A stretch of DNA of 64,000 nt. It comes from Cytophagaceae bacterium (lineage in GTDB: Bacteria > Bacteroidota > Bacteroidia > Cytophagales > JAIYAX01). This document shows positions 46,534-54,152 of this stretch, piece by piece. Each line of letters begins with the position of its first letter. The stretch's first letter is position 1. The notes beneath the pieces are model-generated. The model was given only the letters and a program-made list of their open reading frames with translations, was not told the DNA's origin and did no database searches. The DNA is taken from positions 1 through 64,000 of the forward strand of contig JAIYAX010000012.1 of assembly GCA_027488815.1 (NCBI GenBank), written 5' to 3'. Both the position numbers and the translations under genes were made by a program.

Positions 46534-46895
46534 ACGCTGTTTATGATGCAAGATTTCTTTGATGATACTTCATTAATTAAAACCTGCACCCCGGCGACAA
46601 GGTATTGGTGCTCATTAGTGATAATTGGATGACGGGTGATTTATTTGACTTCTTTGGGCGAATAGTTAACTTATTTGGTGTATATCAAACTATACAGGCG
46701 TTTAGAAAGTATAAGCTTGGCTAGTAAGCCCTAGCTAAATTGAGTAGAAGATATTTAGCTATTCATTGAAAAATTTAGTAAATAAATTTGCGCAGATTTC
46801 TGCAAACTAAATAGATGTGCATAACTCAGCAGCACTCATTTCTCTTATGTACACCTTCTCTGTTATACTTTTGTAGTGTCTATAATTTGAACCTT
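46534..46895. other. Gap with a possible small frame and no certain gene
   Basis: A frame from TTG 46605 to TAG 46724 reads LVLISDNWMTGDLFDFFGRI then VNLFGVYQTIQAFRKYKLG, protein-like but without a good start. TACTTTTG at 46866-46873 fits the -7 element before the GIY-YIG gene; no -33 was found. TTTGCGCAGATTTCTGCAAA (near 46789) is a near-palindrome. Confidence 0.35.
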
Positions 46896-47162
46896 ATGTT
46901 TATCGTCTATAGATTAATTAATCATACAAAGAAAGAAGTGTATCATGGTATAACCCAAGACCTTCACCAAAGATTGAATAGTTCACATTGTGTTGGCGTA
47001 ACAAAAGCTTTGAGTCACTGGAAATGCGGTGTTGATAAAATAACTGTTCAAAAACTTTCTAATCATTACAAACAACCCAACGCTTCAGAAGTTGCTCATT
47101 ATTACGAGGAAAGTTACAGAAGTAGGAAGGGTTACAGGAATATAAGAACAGCAGGTAAGTAA
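46896..47162 (+). CDS. Small GIY-YIG-like protein
   Basis: The ATG at 46896 gives MFIVYRLINHTKKEVYHGIT, which matches the start of a GIY-YIG fold (here VYR..VYHGIT). It is followed by QDLHQRLNSSHC and LSHWKCGVDKI. 88 residues, short for the family. The catalytic Arg/Glu set cannot be assigned with confidence, so nuclease activity is uncertain. A 60-residue charged protein gene follows after 15 bp. Confidence 0.6.
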   Translation: MFIVYRLINHTKKEVYHGITQDLHQRLNSSHCVGVTKALSHWKCGVDKITVQKLSNHYKQPNASEVAHYYEESYRSRKGYRNIRTAGK

Positions 47163-47361: not shown

Positions 47362-47844
47362 TTAGAAGACAAAGAAAAATGTTATGAATAAAGTAATGCC
47401 ACCAAGCATAAAAAGTATAGATGTAAAGTTGGTAATTGACACAATTTTATCATACAATTTTATATTACAGTTTAAGTTCATTAATTCTTCATTATCGTCA
47501 ATTGATTTATTTGATTGGATAAGTTTAATTACTTTAGTTGAATAAATTGCTTCCAGATTGTTAGAGCGATAACCAAAAAATTGCGAAGTAAAGTTTGCTA
47601 GAATTGAAAGTAAATATAGAAAGGAGCCTGTTTTTACTAGCTGCATATCAAAATTCTTATCATAGAAGAATTTAAACATTTCAAAGGATAAAAAAAGACC
47701 CCCGGAACATATCGAGATAATAAGCAAATCCATTCTGCGGATTGCATACCACTTATTTTCAATTCCTTTCGCTTCATGTTGTATCCACCTGTTTAGCTTA
47801 AATTCTTTTTGAGTATCCTTATTTCTTGATTTTACTCCTTTCAT
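47362..47844 (-). CDS. Membrane protein translationally coupled to the ISP-type R-M gene
   Basis: The ATG at 47844 shares ATGA (47841-47844) with the stop of the restriction-modification gene, so its translation depends on that of the enzyme. 160 residues with three hydrophobic segments (near 38-60, 68-92 and 137-159: MDLLIISICSGGLFLSFEMF; GSFLYLLSILANFTSQFFGY; TSILFMLGGITLFITFFFVF). The N-terminal basic part is cytosolic. No family recognised; the SLATT/S-4TM type pore effectors have a comparable layout. Confidence 0.7.
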   Translation of the reverse strand: MKGVKSRNKDTQKEFKLNRWIQHEAKGIENKWYAIRRMDLLIISICSGGLFLSFEMFKFFYDKNFDMQLVKTGSFLYLLSILANFTSQFFGYRSNNLEAIYSTKVIKLIQSNKSIDDNEELMNLNCNIKLYDKIVSITNFTSILFMLGGITLFITFFFVF

Positions 47845-50840
47845 GGCATTTGCTGGATGATGTTCATGGTCTCTACACTTACCCTGCATACCTGACCCAG
47901 CAGGGTGATCACGGCTTCTTTGTGATTGGCAAAGCGATAGGTGTCAAATCGGGCGGCGATCGTGGGGTCTTGTGGTGCGCTTTCTTTGTATTGGTCGAGC
48001 ACCCACTCCAGCGCCGAGCGGTTGCCGAGCTTGTACTCCCAGGCTTGTGAAGGGATGCCGCTTAGTTGGGTGTTTTCGTCGAGTTGTAGGGTGTGGCTTG
48101 CCTTGTCTACCTTGAGTTTTGCCTTGGGTTTGGGCTTTTGGTCGGTTTCTACACGCTGCAAGGGCCAGGGTTCGGCCTGTTCATAGCCCAGGTGCAGTTC
48201 CATAAGGGCTTTGCCCCAGGCAGCCCAGTTCCAAAATTCTTTGTACAGGGGTATGCGTGGGAAATCCCGCTTAAGGTTTTGGGCGTACTTGCTGCGGTAG
48301 GCCGGGTGGTGCAGCACAGCATACACGTAGTGGAAAACATCCTCCTTGCCGATGCTCTTGTCTTTGTACCGCTTGGTAAACTGCGCCAGTCCCCAATCGG
48401 TGAGGTTATCTTGTGCTTGCCCGGCTTCATCGTAGCGGTATAGGGGGATGCACTGAGAGTCGCCGGTGGCATGCAGGTCTACCAGTTGCGCTGAAGCTAG
48501 CACGTGAAAGCTTTTGGTATTGCCCGGACTGTTAAATGCGATAAATCGGTTGGAATGATTGGGGTGGTAAAGATCAAACCACTGGTAAGTCCTTCCATTG
48601 AAATGCCTGTCGAAGTAAAACCACTGCTTGTAAAATGGTCTGTACAAAGACCTTTGTATCGCATTTGCATTAAAGGATTTCTCTATCTTTCGTAGGGCAT
48701 AGCTTTCTAGTTCTGCATCCCACTTGATGCTAAACTTGTGTTGGTAGTTTGGGTCTGCAAGGGTGCTGCCGTACACCTCGATCATGTGCCTTACCTTGGC
48801 CTCCAGTGCTTCTTTACTCAGGTCGTACACCCATTCGTCCCGCTGGCTTTTCACTCCGCTTGAAAACAGTTTGAACAATGCCTTTTCCCCTTTCCCTGCT
48901 TTCACCTGCTTATCTACCAGTGGCAGCAGGCTGTCGAAGTCGTTATCGGTTTGGTTGATCCAGTTGTGTTTGCGGTCGGGCACGAGTGGCTCCATACTCA
49001 GGGTTTCCAGGTTGTTGGCAGAAAACCAACTGCATTTCTCTTCTCTTCTCCAGGCTTCGGGTAGGTCTGTGTAAAATAGTTTAGCGGTATCTCCGGCTTT
49101 TTTCTGACCGCTCTTTACCAGAAACAATACTGCAATCCCCGTTTGTATGCCAAATACATTGTGTGTAGTGCCTGCTATTTTGGGATTGGCCCTTACGTCG
49201 CTATGCGTGTCGATGATGTAGGCATAGTCAAATTCTTCCTCGACACATTTTCTAAAACCGTCCAGAGTTCGGCTGTCAATAAAACTACGGTTGGTCACGA
49301 ATGCGATAATGCCTTTGTCTTGTAGCCTGTCCATCGCCCAGCGATAAAACCGGGTGTACATATCGTACACCACTATCTGGTTTTGCGCTGTGCCGTATTT
49401 CACAAAGGTGTCCCGTATGCGGCCGTCAATGGTGGCATAGGCACGGTTGGCATTTTGGTAGTTGTAGTTTTCCTGCTTGGCGTTGTAGGGTGGGTTGCCG
49501 ATGATCACCGATATTTTACGCCGGTTTTGGGCTTTGATGCGTTTGCTGTTTTCCTCGGTGAGGGGGGTGAACAGGTCCATTTGCTTACCCGTGTAGGTGA
49601 AGCCCATGTTGTCCAGCGTATCGACAAAGCATAGGTTTTTGAACTCGGCATAGCGGCCCATTTTCTGAGCGTAGGTGTACTCGATGTTGAGGTTGCTGAT
49701 GTAGTAGGGCAGTATGGCCACTTCGTTGGCATGCAGCTCATGGGTGTACTTGTACTCCAGCTTGTCCTTGCGCAGGTAGTCAATGATGTCGCAAATAAAG
49801 GTGCCCGTGCCTGTGGCAGGGTCAAGTATTTCCACACCTTTGTCTTCCAAGTGTTTACCAAAGTGCCTGTGTAGCAGGTAGTCTGTGCTGCGTATCATGA
49901 ACTGCACCAACTCGTTGGGCGTGTACACCACTCCCAGCCGGTCTGCAGCCTTGGGGTTGTAGCTTTTGTAGAAGGTTTCGTAGATCACCTTGAGAAATTT
50001 TTGCTTCTCGTGGTGATCGGCTATGCCGGCAGCGGCGGCGTTGATGGCCTGGTAATAGTGCTGTATGGTACCAAGTGTGAGGCGGCGAGTGGGCCCTTTG
50101 AAAAAAGTGCCTATGACCCGCTCCAGAGCACGGGCGATGTTATTTTCCCGATGAAACTGCGTTTCGTCGAATACCGTGTTGAAGATGTTTTCGGTGAGGA
50201 TATGCTGAATCATCATCTCCCGCACATCGTCCCGGCTTACCTCAGGATTTATGCTCTCTCTGCACAAGGCAAGTAAGGCATCAGCCGCTTTCACAAAGGG
50301 CGGGTTGGTATTCTCCTGCGAGAGTATGATGCCCCGGAGGGTTTCGGTCACCTTGGGTACATCTTGCTTGAACAGTTCAATGGCCTTGCGGAAATGCTGC
50401 ACCTCAGGCCGCTCGTACTGCACCCAGGCGTTAAGGAGCCTGTGGAGGGCGGTTTCATTCTGGAGAGCTACACGCATCACTTCGGCACCACCCTGTATGA
50501 GTACAGCAGTGCGACTGTCTTCAAATAGAATGTTGTCGTCGGGGTATCCTTTATCGAGTTTGAGGCTGATCTCGTCGTCGAGGTGGTCGTTTTCGTCTTT
50601 GCTTTCCCAGTAGCCCCAGTCCTGGCGCAGGCTGTCTTTGAGCGTGCCGTCCGGGGTAATGGTTCGGCCCTGTCGGTTTTTCAGGCTTACCTCCGCCACT
50701 AGCAGCAGGCCCTGGGCTTGTGCATACTCTTTGAGCAAGGTAAAGAAGGCAGTTCGTATGCTGGTCTCCTTGCCCGTGCCCCCATAGTGTCTGATTTGCT
50801 CTACTTCGGTGAGGTAGCGGTGTATGGAGTGGAGGGACAT
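47841..50840 (-). CDS. Single-chain type ISP/IIG-like restriction-modification enzyme
   Basis: Start at 50840 (MSLHSIHRYLTEVEQIRHYG). 999 residues. An N-terminal PD-(D/E)xK nuclease candidate (RTITPDGTLK, WGYWESKDEN, about 65-90) is followed by a helical linker. The N6-adenine methyltransferase core has SAM motif I (EILDPATGTGTFICDIIDYL) and catalytic NPPY (SVIIGNPPYNAKQENYNYQN). A C-terminal target-recognition region ends the protein. It has no helicase domain, unlike full type ISP enzymes. It methylates and cuts DNA. It is divergent from the TIR/PIN genes and coupled to the membrane protein gene downstream. Confidence 0.88.
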   Translation of the reverse strand: MSLHSIHRYLTEVEQIRHYGGTGKETSIRTAFFTLLKEYAQAQGLLLVAEVSLKNRQGRTITPDGTLKDSLRQDWGYWESKDENDHLDDEISLKLDKGYPDDNILFEDSRTAVLIQGGAEVMRVALQNETALHRLLNAWVQYERPEVQHFRKAIELFKQDVPKVTETLRGIILSQENTNPPFVKAADALLALCRESINPEVSRDDVREMMIQHILTENIFNTVFDETQFHRENNIARALERVIGTFFKGPTRRLTLGTIQHYYQAINAAAAGIADHHEKQKFLKVIYETFYKSYNPKAADRLGVVYTPNELVQFMIRSTDYLLHRHFGKHLEDKGVEILDPATGTGTFICDIIDYLRKDKLEYKYTHELHANEVAILPYYISNLNIEYTYAQKMGRYAEFKNLCFVDTLDNMGFTYTGKQMDLFTPLTEENSKRIKAQNRRKISVIIGNPPYNAKQENYNYQNANRAYATIDGRIRDTFVKYGTAQNQIVVYDMYTRFYRWAMDRLQDKGIIAFVTNRSFIDSRTLDGFRKCVEEEFDYAYIIDTHSDVRANPKIAGTTHNVFGIQTGIAVLFLVKSGQKKAGDTAKLFYTDLPEAWRREEKCSWFSANNLETLSMEPLVPDRKHNWINQTDNDFDSLLPLVDKQVKAGKGEKALFKLFSSGVKSQRDEWVYDLSKEALEAKVRHMIEVYGSTLADPNYQHKFSIKWDAELESYALRKIEKSFNANAIQRSLYRPFYKQWFYFDRHFNGRTYQWFDLYHPNHSNRFIAFNSPGNTKSFHVLASAQLVDLHATGDSQCIPLYRYDEAGQAQDNLTDWGLAQFTKRYKDKSIGKEDVFHYVYAVLHHPAYRSKYAQNLKRDFPRIPLYKEFWNWAAWGKALMELHLGYEQAEPWPLQRVETDQKPKPKAKLKVDKASHTLQLDENTQLSGIPSQAWEYKLGNRSALEWVLDQYKESAPQDPTIAARFDTYRFANHKEAVITLLGQVCRVSVETMNIIQQMP

Positions 50841-50901: not shown

Positions 50902-50931
50902 TTGTACACATGTAGTTTTATCCTATATTTG
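50902..50931 (+). promoter_or_regulatory. Promoter of the TIR/PIN operon
   Basis: TTG (50902-50904), 19-base spacer, TATATTTG (50924-50931): an exact Bacteroidota promoter. The ATG begins at 50937, only 6 bases after the -7 box, so the transcript would be leaderless or nearly so. Confidence 0.65.
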
Positions 50932-50936
50932 AGGAC

Positions 50937-51434
50937 ATGAACCATATTTTTGTTTCGTACAATCCGAAAGTTCAGGAAGAACAGAGCCTGGCCTTGCGAC
51001 TTCAGACGCTTGGGGCCTTATATGGCTTGCATATTTCATTGCCAGATCGTCTGGGCAGTCACGCTTTGAAACAAGCAACCATTGATCGGATCAAAAAAGC
51101 GGATCTGTATATCGTTTTTTCTACCAGAACGTTAGAGAAATCTGTAAAAGATGAAATCAATACAGCACTTCAATTTAAAAAACAGATTGTAGTGATTTAC
51201 GACAAAGACATTGGTAAAATTTTGAACTTAGATGGAGTTGTCGAGATTGAATATGATCGTAGAGGTGAATCTTCAGATGCGTTTCTTAAGAGGGTTTTAG
51301 ATGAGATCCAAAAATTGCAAATTGATAATAGAAAAAAGAAAGAAGATGCAACTGCTACTGCTGTAGGTGCATTTGTATTAGTTGGTTTAGGCCTTCTTTT
51401 ATTAGGGGCATTGATCTCTGATGATAAGGAGTGA
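50937..51434 (+). CDS. Membrane-anchored TIR-like domain protein
   Basis: 165 residues. The TIR-like fold occupies 1-125: strand HIFVSYNPKVQEEQS, then ADLYIVFSTRTLEKSVKDEI, where Glu73 is in the position of the NADase catalytic Glu, then KKQIVVIYDKDIG. A C-terminal membrane helix (TATAVGAFVLVGLGLLLLGA, 139-158) leaves a DDKE tail. Its stop overlaps the next gene by 4 bases (GTGA). TIR domains in defence cleave NAD+ or make signals; here the fold call is moderate because the BB-loop is short. Confidence 0.72.
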   Translation: MNHIFVSYNPKVQEEQSLALRLQTLGALYGLHISLPDRLGSHALKQATIDRIKKADLYIVFSTRTLEKSVKDEINTALQFKKQIVVIYDKDIGKILNLDGVVEIEYDRRGESSDAFLKRVLDEIQKLQIDNRKKKEDATATAVGAFVLVGLGLLLLGALISDDKE

Positions 51435-51967
51435 TAGCCGTAATTGATACATCGGTGCTTATTACTTTTTACAAAGCTGATAAAGTCAATCTATTGGTCA
51501 ATTTGTATAAAGAAGTATACATACCAAGAAATGTTGAAGAGGAATTTCTACAAAAAGAACCTGATGCAAGACTCGGTTTTTTACTTCCTACTTATGAGTT
51601 GAATACTTGGCTGAAGCCTTGCCAAACCTATGATCCGGGTATGTTAAAATTACTTGCGACTACTCCCAAAATGGATTTAGGCGAGAGCGAAGTTATTGCT
51701 CAAATGAAGCAAATACAACTAGATTTAAACTTGGAAAGCGAGACTTTTGAATGCCTTATAGATGAAAAAGTAGCTCGAAAAGTCGCTCTGAGAATGGACC
51801 TACCTGTTAAGGGTGCCTTGCGACTCTTGGCACGCCTTCATTTTCTTGGTTATCTTGATTTCCACAGCACAGTTGAACCCATAGCAAAGGAGAGAAGATT
51901 TGCTCCAGAGATTATTGATGAGGCTTTTAGAATTGCTGAAGAGGAAGCTTTGGGTGGGCAAAAGTAA
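51431..51967 (+). CDS. PIN-like (DUF3368 type) ribonuclease fold protein
   Basis: 178 residues starting at a GTG that overlaps the TIR gene stop. PIN acidic residues are in place: Asp6 (AVIDTSVLITF), Glu36-38 (NVEEEFLQKE), Asp82/Glu85/Glu87 (MDLGESEVIAQM) and Asp111 (LIDEKVARKVAL). The last block is characteristic of DUF3368. Probably a metal-dependent RNase. Translational coupling to the TIR-like protein indicates joint action. Confidence 0.82.
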   Translation: MIAVIDTSVLITFYKADKVNLLVNLYKEVYIPRNVEEEFLQKEPDARLGFLLPTYELNTWLKPCQTYDPGMLKLLATTPKMDLGESEVIAQMKQIQLDLNLESETFECLIDEKVARKVALRMDLPVKGALRLLARLHFLGYLDFHSTVEPIAKERRFAPEIIDEAFRIAEEEALGGQK

Positions 51968-52237: not shown

Positions 52238-52966
52238 CTATTCATTCACCCGCTCCCTTAGCCCCGCCTCTCCAAAATAATCCTGCAAAAACACAGGAAA
52301 TGCGCTCAACACCGCAACGCAACGGCTGGGCTGGATAAACTGCTCGTACTGGCTGGCAAACAAGCTGGCTTGGGAAATGCGCTCCATCGGCGGCATGTAC
52401 TTCCCTGAAACGATGTAGTGGAGTTTCATGAGGTGCAAAGTGATCAACTGCCGCCAGGTCTCGTAATTGTATCTTCTTATGTCGGCAAAGTCTTTATGGG
52501 CACTGTTATGCACAAGATTTTTGTAGCCAATGTTTTCTTTACAAGCCACTTTCAAGTCTTTGAACGATTCGATATGTTCAATATGCCTTAGTGCTTCCAC
52601 CATAGGGTAGTTCACATAGAGCAGTCCGTGGTCGGTTTCATCCTTGAAGAACTCGATCATGGCTCTGAGCTTGTCATCATCGGCCTTGTCTGACTGGCCG
52701 TCATAGTCAAAGAACAGATAGATTTCGGCAAAGTCCTTTCTAGAATAGGCATTCAGAACGCCTGATTTGTCGTAGTTGCGCTCTTTTAGCAAGTTAAACA
52801 GATCCAGATCAGGGTCAGAGGAGACCGTCTTGTACAACTGGTAGATTTCAGCTCCATACACGCAGGTCACAATGGAGTTTTCCTGAAGAAAGTGCTTTTG
52901 TTAACTCTTGACAATCTGCTTTTCAGGATATTCACCTTCAAAAACAAATAACCATTTACCCGACAT
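52238..52966 (-). pseudogene. TOPRIM-type nuclease partner of the ATPase, with in-frame stop
   Basis: An ATG at 52966 overlaps the ATPase stop and opens a 243-codon frame: MSGKWLFVFEGEYPEKQIVK, Ser, then TAA at 52903-52901 (codon 22). It continues in frame with QKHFLQENSIV and the rest of a TOPRIM-like protein: the Glu of FEGE precedes the stop, and IYLFFDYDGQSDKADDD carries the D-x-D. NYPMVEALRHI is a typical later block. A shortened product could start at GTG 52870 but would lack the catalytic Glu. A mutation or sequencing error of a TTA-like codon would explain the stop. Confidence 0.75.
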
Positions 52967-54071
52967 CAAAAGAGCCTGCTTTGTACATTTTCTCGATGTT
53001 GTGTGCCTCTCTCAGCTCTTTAGGTGTGCTTCTGGATAAAGAACGGATGCGGTCTTTTGTCATGAGGAAGTAGCAGTCAGGCCGCAGCAGGTCGTTGGTG
53101 ATGATGGAGGTGTTGTGTGAGGTGAGGATAAATTGGATGCCTGTTTTTTTAAGCTCTTCTACGATCAAAGCTGAAAGCTCATGGTGGTAAAAGGCATCAA
53201 ACTCATCGATAAAGACGAACTGAACTTTGGACTGCTCTCTAATCCTTTGCAACCAATAATAAAACATTGCTAAGGATTGTGTGCCTGATGAGGCTATTTG
53301 GAAGAATGGAATTGTCTTTCCTCTAAAATTAAATGCAATTACATCTTTGTCAATTTCTCTAGCTATTGTCAGGTCACATTCTACTCCTGCTTTCTTGAGA
53401 AACTTTTCAAGATCTTTAACATTACCTTTTGAAATAATGTCATCCTGAACGCCTTTTCTTCCAGTTTCTAGGCCTAGATATACGTTTTGTTGTAACGATC
53501 TGAAAAACAACATCGAGTTGACAAACTCGTAAAATTTATAAAATACTTGATTTTCAACGTTATCCTCTAGCTGTGAATTGCTTTTGATGTATTTTAATAA
53601 TGAAAGGCTTAAATTCGTTAATTCATTGTTAAGCGTTTCAGCTCCTATAAAATTGATCGTTGCTTTGGTACTAGCATACCTGTCAATCCTAGCCAATTCT
53701 TTACCATTGATTTCAAACCGTTCAAAAAGGGTTATCCTGACATCATCTTTTTTGTATTCATATTTTACATGGTCACTTCCGAAAACAAATTCAAATTCAA
53801 AATGAGCTAAACTTCCCCCATTCAAAGCGTTTAAATAAGGTCTATATAGCTCAACGTACACATTATTATCCGTCAAGTGCCCAACCAAATCAAATATCGC
53901 CAGCCCAAGGTTTGATTTACCCACTCCATTGTGGCCATACACGAGGGCATTGTTGACCAGGCCGTTTTTGATGCACTCCTTATTGAACTCATATCCGTTG
54001 ACATCGGAGAGGTCAAATACAAAGTCTCTTTCAAAACTCCTGAAGTTAGAGACGGTCAGTTTTTTTAGCAT
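52956..54071 (-). CDS. OLD/RloA-like AAA ATPase
   Basis: Start at 54071 (MLKKLTVSNFRSFERDFVFD). 371 residues. Walker A is YGHNGVGKSNLGLAIFDLVG (about 45-52). The ABC-type signature region is ASSGTQSLAMFYYWL, and Walker B with D-loop is VFIDEFDAFYHHELS, followed by FILTSHNTSIITNDLL. It is related to overcoming-lysogenization-defect ATPases, which in defence pairs (PARIS, AbiL type) act with a TOPRIM or RloB nuclease. The next gene in the operon is such a partner but has a stop codon. Confidence 0.88.
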   Translation of the reverse strand: MLKKLTVSNFRSFERDFVFDLSDVNGYEFNKECIKNGLVNNALVYGHNGVGKSNLGLAIFDLVGHLTDNNVYVELYRPYLNALNGGSLAHFEFEFVFGSDHVKYEYKKDDVRITLFERFEINGKELARIDRYASTKATINFIGAETLNNELTNLSLSLLKYIKSNSQLEDNVENQVFYKFYEFVNSMLFFRSLQQNVYLGLETGRKGVQDDIISKGNVKDLEKFLKKAGVECDLTIAREIDKDVIAFNFRGKTIPFFQIASSGTQSLAMFYYWLQRIREQSKVQFVFIDEFDAFYHHELSALIVEELKKTGIQFILTSHNTSIITNDLLRPDCYFLMTKDRIRSLSRSTPKELREAHNIEKMYKAGSFDVG

Positions 54072-54152
54072 GGTTGTCGAGTGGGCGCACAAAGCTATTC
54101 AAAAAATCATGCTCCGTAATTTTTTTACGGTAATTACTTTAGTAGCTGATAT

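Follow-up and report, generated by a model that had tools for sequence, protein, structure and literature searches.

A tail-anchored TIR-like protein and a PIN-like nuclease form a conserved gene pair that may act in phage defense

Two overlapping genes in a Cytophagaceae contig raise the question of why a small, membrane-anchored TIR-like protein should be encoded together with a PIN-like nuclease, and whether the two form a defense system. We analyzed this pair in a stretch of 64,000 nucleotides (referred to as the window), for which an initial annotation had proposed a two-gene system outside the named defense architectures.

RESULTS

Two overlapping genes follow a promoter match

Both open reading frames were found as described in the initial annotation, with the start of the PIN-like gene overlapping the end of the TIR-like gene by GTGA:

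50902..50931, + strand: promoter match of the Bacteroidota type, TTG-N19-TATATTTG, 6 bases upstream of the TIR ATG
50937..51434, + strand: TIR-like gene, 165 aa, tail-anchored (ATG start at 50937, stop at 51434)
51431..51967, + strand: PIN-like nuclease gene, 178 aa, PADLOC PDC-S70/DUF3368 branch (GTG start)

The promoter match follows the pattern TTG-N19-TAnnTTTG. Since 1.5 such matches are expected by chance in the window, it is notable for its position, not for its existence. TAnnTTTG boxes also lie shortly upstream of the start in L005, L006, L007, L013, and L016, and the pair's own promoter therefore appears to be partly conserved among these five relatives. Only in L016 is the box as close to the start as in the window; the other leaders are longer. 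The proposed promoter match stands, and we infer a leaderless mRNA, previously assigned to the window pair, for that pair and for L016.

The first protein is a tail-anchored TIR

A single-sequence structure model of the window TIR (pLDDT 80.5) matched the plant TIR RRS1 best among solved structures (Z 15.7, 128 residues, rmsd 2.3), followed by the plant TIRs RPS4, RPV1, and RUN1 (Z 13-14) and then by DNPH1 hydrolases, which belong to the same fold class. The family profile matches tir-1 and SARM1 (E 6e-8), and E73 falls on their catalytic Glu. For the window protein, Pfam gives no more than a weak match to ThsB_TIR (E 0.05); its close relative L074 scores above the Pfam TIR_2 cutoff (36.2 versus 28). 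By model and profile, then, the first protein of the pair has a TIR fold, as first assigned. An artefactual TIR match was ruled out by the agreement of fold and profiles. Three features of this protein recur among its relatives:

51048..51050, + strand: R38 in the BB-loop region (LPxR motif), conserved without exception among close relatives (alignments)
51153..51155, + strand: E73, the catalytic-position Glu, invariant in 20/20 relatives and aligned with the VHKEL Glu of tir-1
51360..51416, + strand: C-terminal transmembrane tail anchor (hydropathy), residues 142-160, followed by a 5-residue tail

I52 is invariant together with E73 across the 20 aligned TIR relatives, and P36 together with R38 across the close TIRs (14 independent ones, with G069 and G074 taken as one). 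The window protein consists of a TIR plus a long helix, followed by a single C-terminal hydrophobic segment at residues 142-160 (mean Kyte-Doolittle 2.65). All 20 relatives keep such an anchor, as one hydrophobic segment with 0 to 6 residues after it. Both the Glu in the catalytic position and the C-terminal membrane helix, as noted at the outset, are therefore family traits.

SARM1 carries a Trp four residues ahead of its catalytic Glu (position -4) that is absent or unconserved in this family, and the conserved Glu is also present in TLR-type TIRs that lack NADase activity. For these reasons, we call the TIR a candidate NADase. The conservation of R38, K49, R51, and E73 suggests that nucleotide binding, and perhaps cleavage, has been retained.

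The second protein is a putative PIN nuclease

By clear homology, the second protein is a putative PIN nuclease, in a divergent branch of PDC-S70/DUF3368. It matches PADLOC PDC-S70 (E 4e-22), and its acidic residues correspond to those of ordinary DUF3368 PINs in the alignment (hhalign 99.8%). These residues had been described as fully retained; across the family, three are invariant and one nearly so:

51446..51448, + strand: D6, PIN active site, invariant (alignments)
51542..51544, + strand: E38, PIN active site, nearly invariant (Gln in L076 of the wider set)
51683..51691, + strand: E85-S86-E87, GE(S/A)E motif, E85 invariant (alignments)
51761..51763, + strand: D111, PIN active site, invariant, aligned with D88 of UPF0175-paired PINs

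In three relatives (G035, G514, and G477), the PIN belongs to a second lineage, which is more divergent and shares this acidic pattern. The PIN partners, at 170 to 180 aa, are bare PIN domains with no SLOG/SAVED-like ligand-binding domain added. Similarity to PF20698 is weak (E 0.012), and sequence searches with the two PIN profiles hit no solved structure; the single-sequence PIN model (pLDDT 39) was left out of the fold search.

The two genes are inherited together

TIR searches covered relatives, the phylum, three classes, and a plasmid collection, in a sample of about 1,000 genomes. Generic TIRs caught by the profile (L017-L019, L082, L084-L089, and L091) and the nucleoside-deoxyribosyltransferase-like L081 are not small tail-anchored proteins and were excluded; the first six TIRs aligned were too diverse for a pattern search. 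A PIN gene directly follows the TIR gene in 13 of the 14 close homologues, at a spacing of -14 to +9 bases, and the 12 pairs beyond the window come from three bacterial classes and a Leptospira plasmid. The fourteenth TIR (G114) has a DUF2971 protein downstream instead (E 8e-12).

We also searched in reverse, with the PIN profiles. One set of 245 genomes and another of 375 each yielded five pair-type PINs, and all 10 lie directly behind a TIR gene. Across these 620 genomes, pair-type PINs score about 190 to 240 bits and the next PIN less than half of that (<80 bits); this PIN clade occurs only in the TIR pair. Distances between TIRs and between PINs correlate over the 13 pairs (Mantel r 0.74, p 5e-5) and over the ten type-1 pairs (r 0.88, p 1e-4). 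Exclusivity and coinheritance together rule out pairing by chance. The distribution is patchy, with the pair in about 2% of the genomes of either large class. No relative of either protein appeared in the genome-contig scans, in four scans of viral contigs, or in phage records, and the plasmid collection contained none except one Leptospira record.

The TIR takes the place of an antitoxin

Ordinary PDC-S70 PINs of the same phylum follow a small gene, of about 73 to 121 aa, that touches or overlaps the PIN gene in all 18 distinct readable loci (those in which the script recognized the PIN gene and its upstream neighbor). This neighbor belonged to UPF0175 in 4 of 4 cases tested, and UPF0175/COG2886 has been proposed as a PIN antitoxin (PMC2701414). 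The TIR thus occupies the place of the UPF0175 antitoxin in ordinary PIN relatives. More distant PINs are paired with Xre-peptidase genes, which the same study also lists as PIN partners; it names no TIR partner.

The TIR-PIN pair and the UPF0175 (COG2886)-DUF3368 pairs have in common a homologous PIN (hhalign 99.8%), a small overlapping upstream gene, gene order, and patchy spread. They differ in that the upstream gene encodes an 80-aa HTH-type antitoxin in the latter and a tail-anchored TIR in the former, and in that window-type PINs branch off as a clade of their own and carry a longer insert. Like type II toxin-antitoxin systems, the TIR-PIN pair has a small first gene that overlaps a second gene of a toxin family; Pfam detected no antitoxin-type DNA-binding domain (UPF0175, RHH, AbrB, or Xre) in the TIR protein. 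We have adjusted the earlier interpretation to include the UPF0175-PIN toxin-antitoxin pair, not considered before, as the nearest anatomical analogue.

The partner of the TIR varies

The DUF2971 partner in G114 weakly matches PADLOC PDC-S31. Two more distant tail-anchored TIRs have other partners. In G850, the partner is a Schlafen AlbA_2 protein (SLFN_AlbA_2, E 2e-14), and the locus comes immediately after a type III R-M gene. In G127, it is a 493-aa protein, and the locus is flanked by type III R-M genes on one side and a PtuAB (Septu) pair on the other:

L119, 6071-7810: tail-anchored TIR with Schlafen AlbA_2 partner
L120, 8094-10040: tail-anchored TIR with 493-aa partner

These wider members likely descend from the same tail-anchored ancestor. 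The effector half looks exchangeable, and since the partners change (DUF2971, SLFN_AlbA_2), the TIR would be the constant, regulating half. Somewhat below an even chance, in our estimate, is the broader proposal that these loci represent a new modular immune family, with a constant tail-anchored mini-TIR as membrane switch and two PIN lineages, DUF2971, Schlafen AlbA_2, and unknowns as effectors.

Defense genes are moderately enriched nearby

The neighbors of the window pair are given here as context:

47841..50840, - strand: type ISP/IIG R-M gene, divergent from the pair (if its start is MSLHSIHRY)
52238..54092, - strand: candidate defense pair PDC-M12B (52238-52870, interrupted upstream) and PDC-M12A ATPase (52956-54092)

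The divergent R-M gene agrees with the initial annotation. The nearby ATPase had been called OLD-like; PADLOC assigns it to candidate PDC-M12A, which is AriA/AbiLi-like, and the OLD-like label is rejected.

Defense genes lie within about 5 kb at 5 of the 14 close loci:

Window: type ISP/IIG R-M and PDC-M12
G069/G074: type I R-M, head to head
G868: type IIG, 2.9 kb away
G114: PDC-S73 at 4.8 kb, with an LmuB-like (Lamassu-like) gene behind it
Leptospira plasmid: RT_UG5-nitrilase DRT at about 3 kb

Against a background density of 82 N6-methylase genes in 46 Mb from 13 host genomes, three loci with an N6-methylase gene within 5 kb give a P of ~0.002, and two with a directly adjacent one give a P of ~0.001. 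The neighborhoods of tail-anchored TIR modules include R-M, Septu, DRT, and Lamassu-like genes. Five loci (L065, L066, L068, L069, and L117) have housekeeping surroundings and no defense neighbor, and some pair loci lie beside transposase or integrase genes. Enrichment near defense genes is thus present, above chance, but moderate. None of the outcomes that were to speak against the proposal (a pair that is not conserved, a first protein with no TIR fold, no defense enrichment) occurred.

Some further observations concern these surroundings. A premature TAA lies near the PDC-M12B N terminus (52901-52903, - strand), and the listed open reading frame begins only after it, at 52870; PDC-M12, the second candidate defense system of the window, may be broken. 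A small open reading frame at 46815-47162 contains a GIY-YIG nuclease domain (Pfam E 7e-6). On the Leptospira interrogans plasmid pLiSL47 (L104 13688-21245), the TIR-PIN pair adjoins metallopeptidase genes of a phage-like region, near the DRT.

DISCUSSION

Several known systems share parts of this architecture. Thoeris (ThsB TIR plus ThsA) likewise has two genes, a small TIR with a catalytic-position Glu, and a partner effector; unlike ThsB, the window TIR is membrane-anchored and matches ThsB weakly (Pfam E 0.05), and its partner is a PIN protein without SLOG or sirtuin domains. PADLOC gave no ThsA match for this partner, and we rejected a Thoeris variant because it is not a ThsA-type protein with SLOG and a sirtuin, TM, or other effector. 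The TIR-SLATT pairs of Firmicute phages (PMC9503650) are also small mobile modules with a membrane-linked TIR, but they use a separate 2TM protein as the membrane part and have no PIN nuclease. TPR-GreA/B-C-PIN systems (PMC8195603) combine TIR and PIN within one conflict system and follow a variable-effector principle; they differ in consisting of large multidomain proteins with TPR and GreA/B-C, and the likeness to PF20698 is weak. PDC-S70 itself, which the window PIN matches, is a single-gene candidate reported to be enriched in archaea (PMC12988326), whereas the window PIN is divergent and always paired with a TIR.

The PIN half as a PADLOC candidate and each domain were therefore already known; we did not find described the pair, a TIR in antitoxin position, or the exchange of partners. 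A literature search without preprints and most subscription papers returned no published description of a TIR-PIN pair, a tail-anchored TIR, or a DUF2971-TIR pair. The view of the locus as an unnamed architecture hence holds for the pair and not for its PIN half, already listed as PDC-S70.

The reading that we favor, with nearly an even chance of being correct, is a two-gene module in which the membrane TIR restrains a PIN RNase and releases it on a cue, probably phage. The tail-anchored TIR would bind the cotranslated PIN ribonuclease at the membrane and hold it inactive. It would read a cue of infection or stress, either a nucleotide in its pocket or a change in the membrane; given the conserved R38, K49, R51, and E73, nucleotide binding is a possible entry point. 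The freed PIN would then cut RNA and stop growth, and its most likely role would be abortive anti-phage defense. Complex formation, inhibition, trigger, RNA cleavage, and phage defense are all parts of this proposed mechanism. Direct control of the PIN by the TIR is favored because the TIR is constant and in antitoxin position, adjacency is strict, and the PIN partner has no ligand-binding domain.

Three other models carry lower weight. In Thoeris-like signaling, which we consider unlikely, the PIN nuclease would be switched on by a nucleotide messenger that the TIR makes from NAD+. The Glu invariant in 20/20 relatives, the NAD hydrolases that are the closest solved relatives by profile, and conserved R38 and K49/R51, which could bind phosphates, would all suit such an enzyme; yet a bare PIN domain of 170 to 180 aa has no SLOG/SAVED-like domain, PADLOC yields no ThsB match for the window TIR, and a soluble messenger would not need such strict adjacency.

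Improbable, too, is an addiction module that secures its own persistence or that of its replicon and has no role in phage defense, even though gene order, size, overlap, patchy spread, the copy on a Leptospira plasmid, the integrase and transposase neighbors, and the toxin-antitoxin toxins among the PIN relatives are what it would predict. Defense neighbors exceed chance (P ~0.002), the TIR lacks a DNA-binding domain with which to regulate its own expression, and an intact catalytic position would be odd in a mere antidote. The roles could also be reversed, with the TIR as toxic effector that depletes NAD+ at the membrane and the PIN as its sensor or restrainer. TIR domains do act as effectors in many systems, and a promoter match of its own precedes the TIR, but the exchanged gene is the second one (PIN type 1, PIN type 2, DUF2971, Schlafen), with the TIR kept throughout, and we regard this model as very unlikely.

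If direct control by the TIR is correct, TIR domains would add the membrane-bound control of an RNase to their known roles as NAD-cleaving effectors, messenger makers, or scaffolds. The pair would then be a small link joining toxin-antitoxin pairs and TIR immunity, and PDC-S70, counted as a "single gene," would have an overlooked second half in its TIR-paired branch.

Wherever its upstream neighbor was readable, PDC-S70 is the toxin-like half of a small-gene/PIN pair in L022, L033, L036-L049 (in part), L097, L098, L103, L111, L112, and L114, and counts of PDC-S70 as a single-gene defense system may largely reflect toxin-antitoxin pairs. The genome of the window itself encodes, on contig C22 (L050), a second, distant PDC-S70 PIN; its partner is an Xre-ImmA/IrrE-type gene, and a type I R-M locus lies next to the two.
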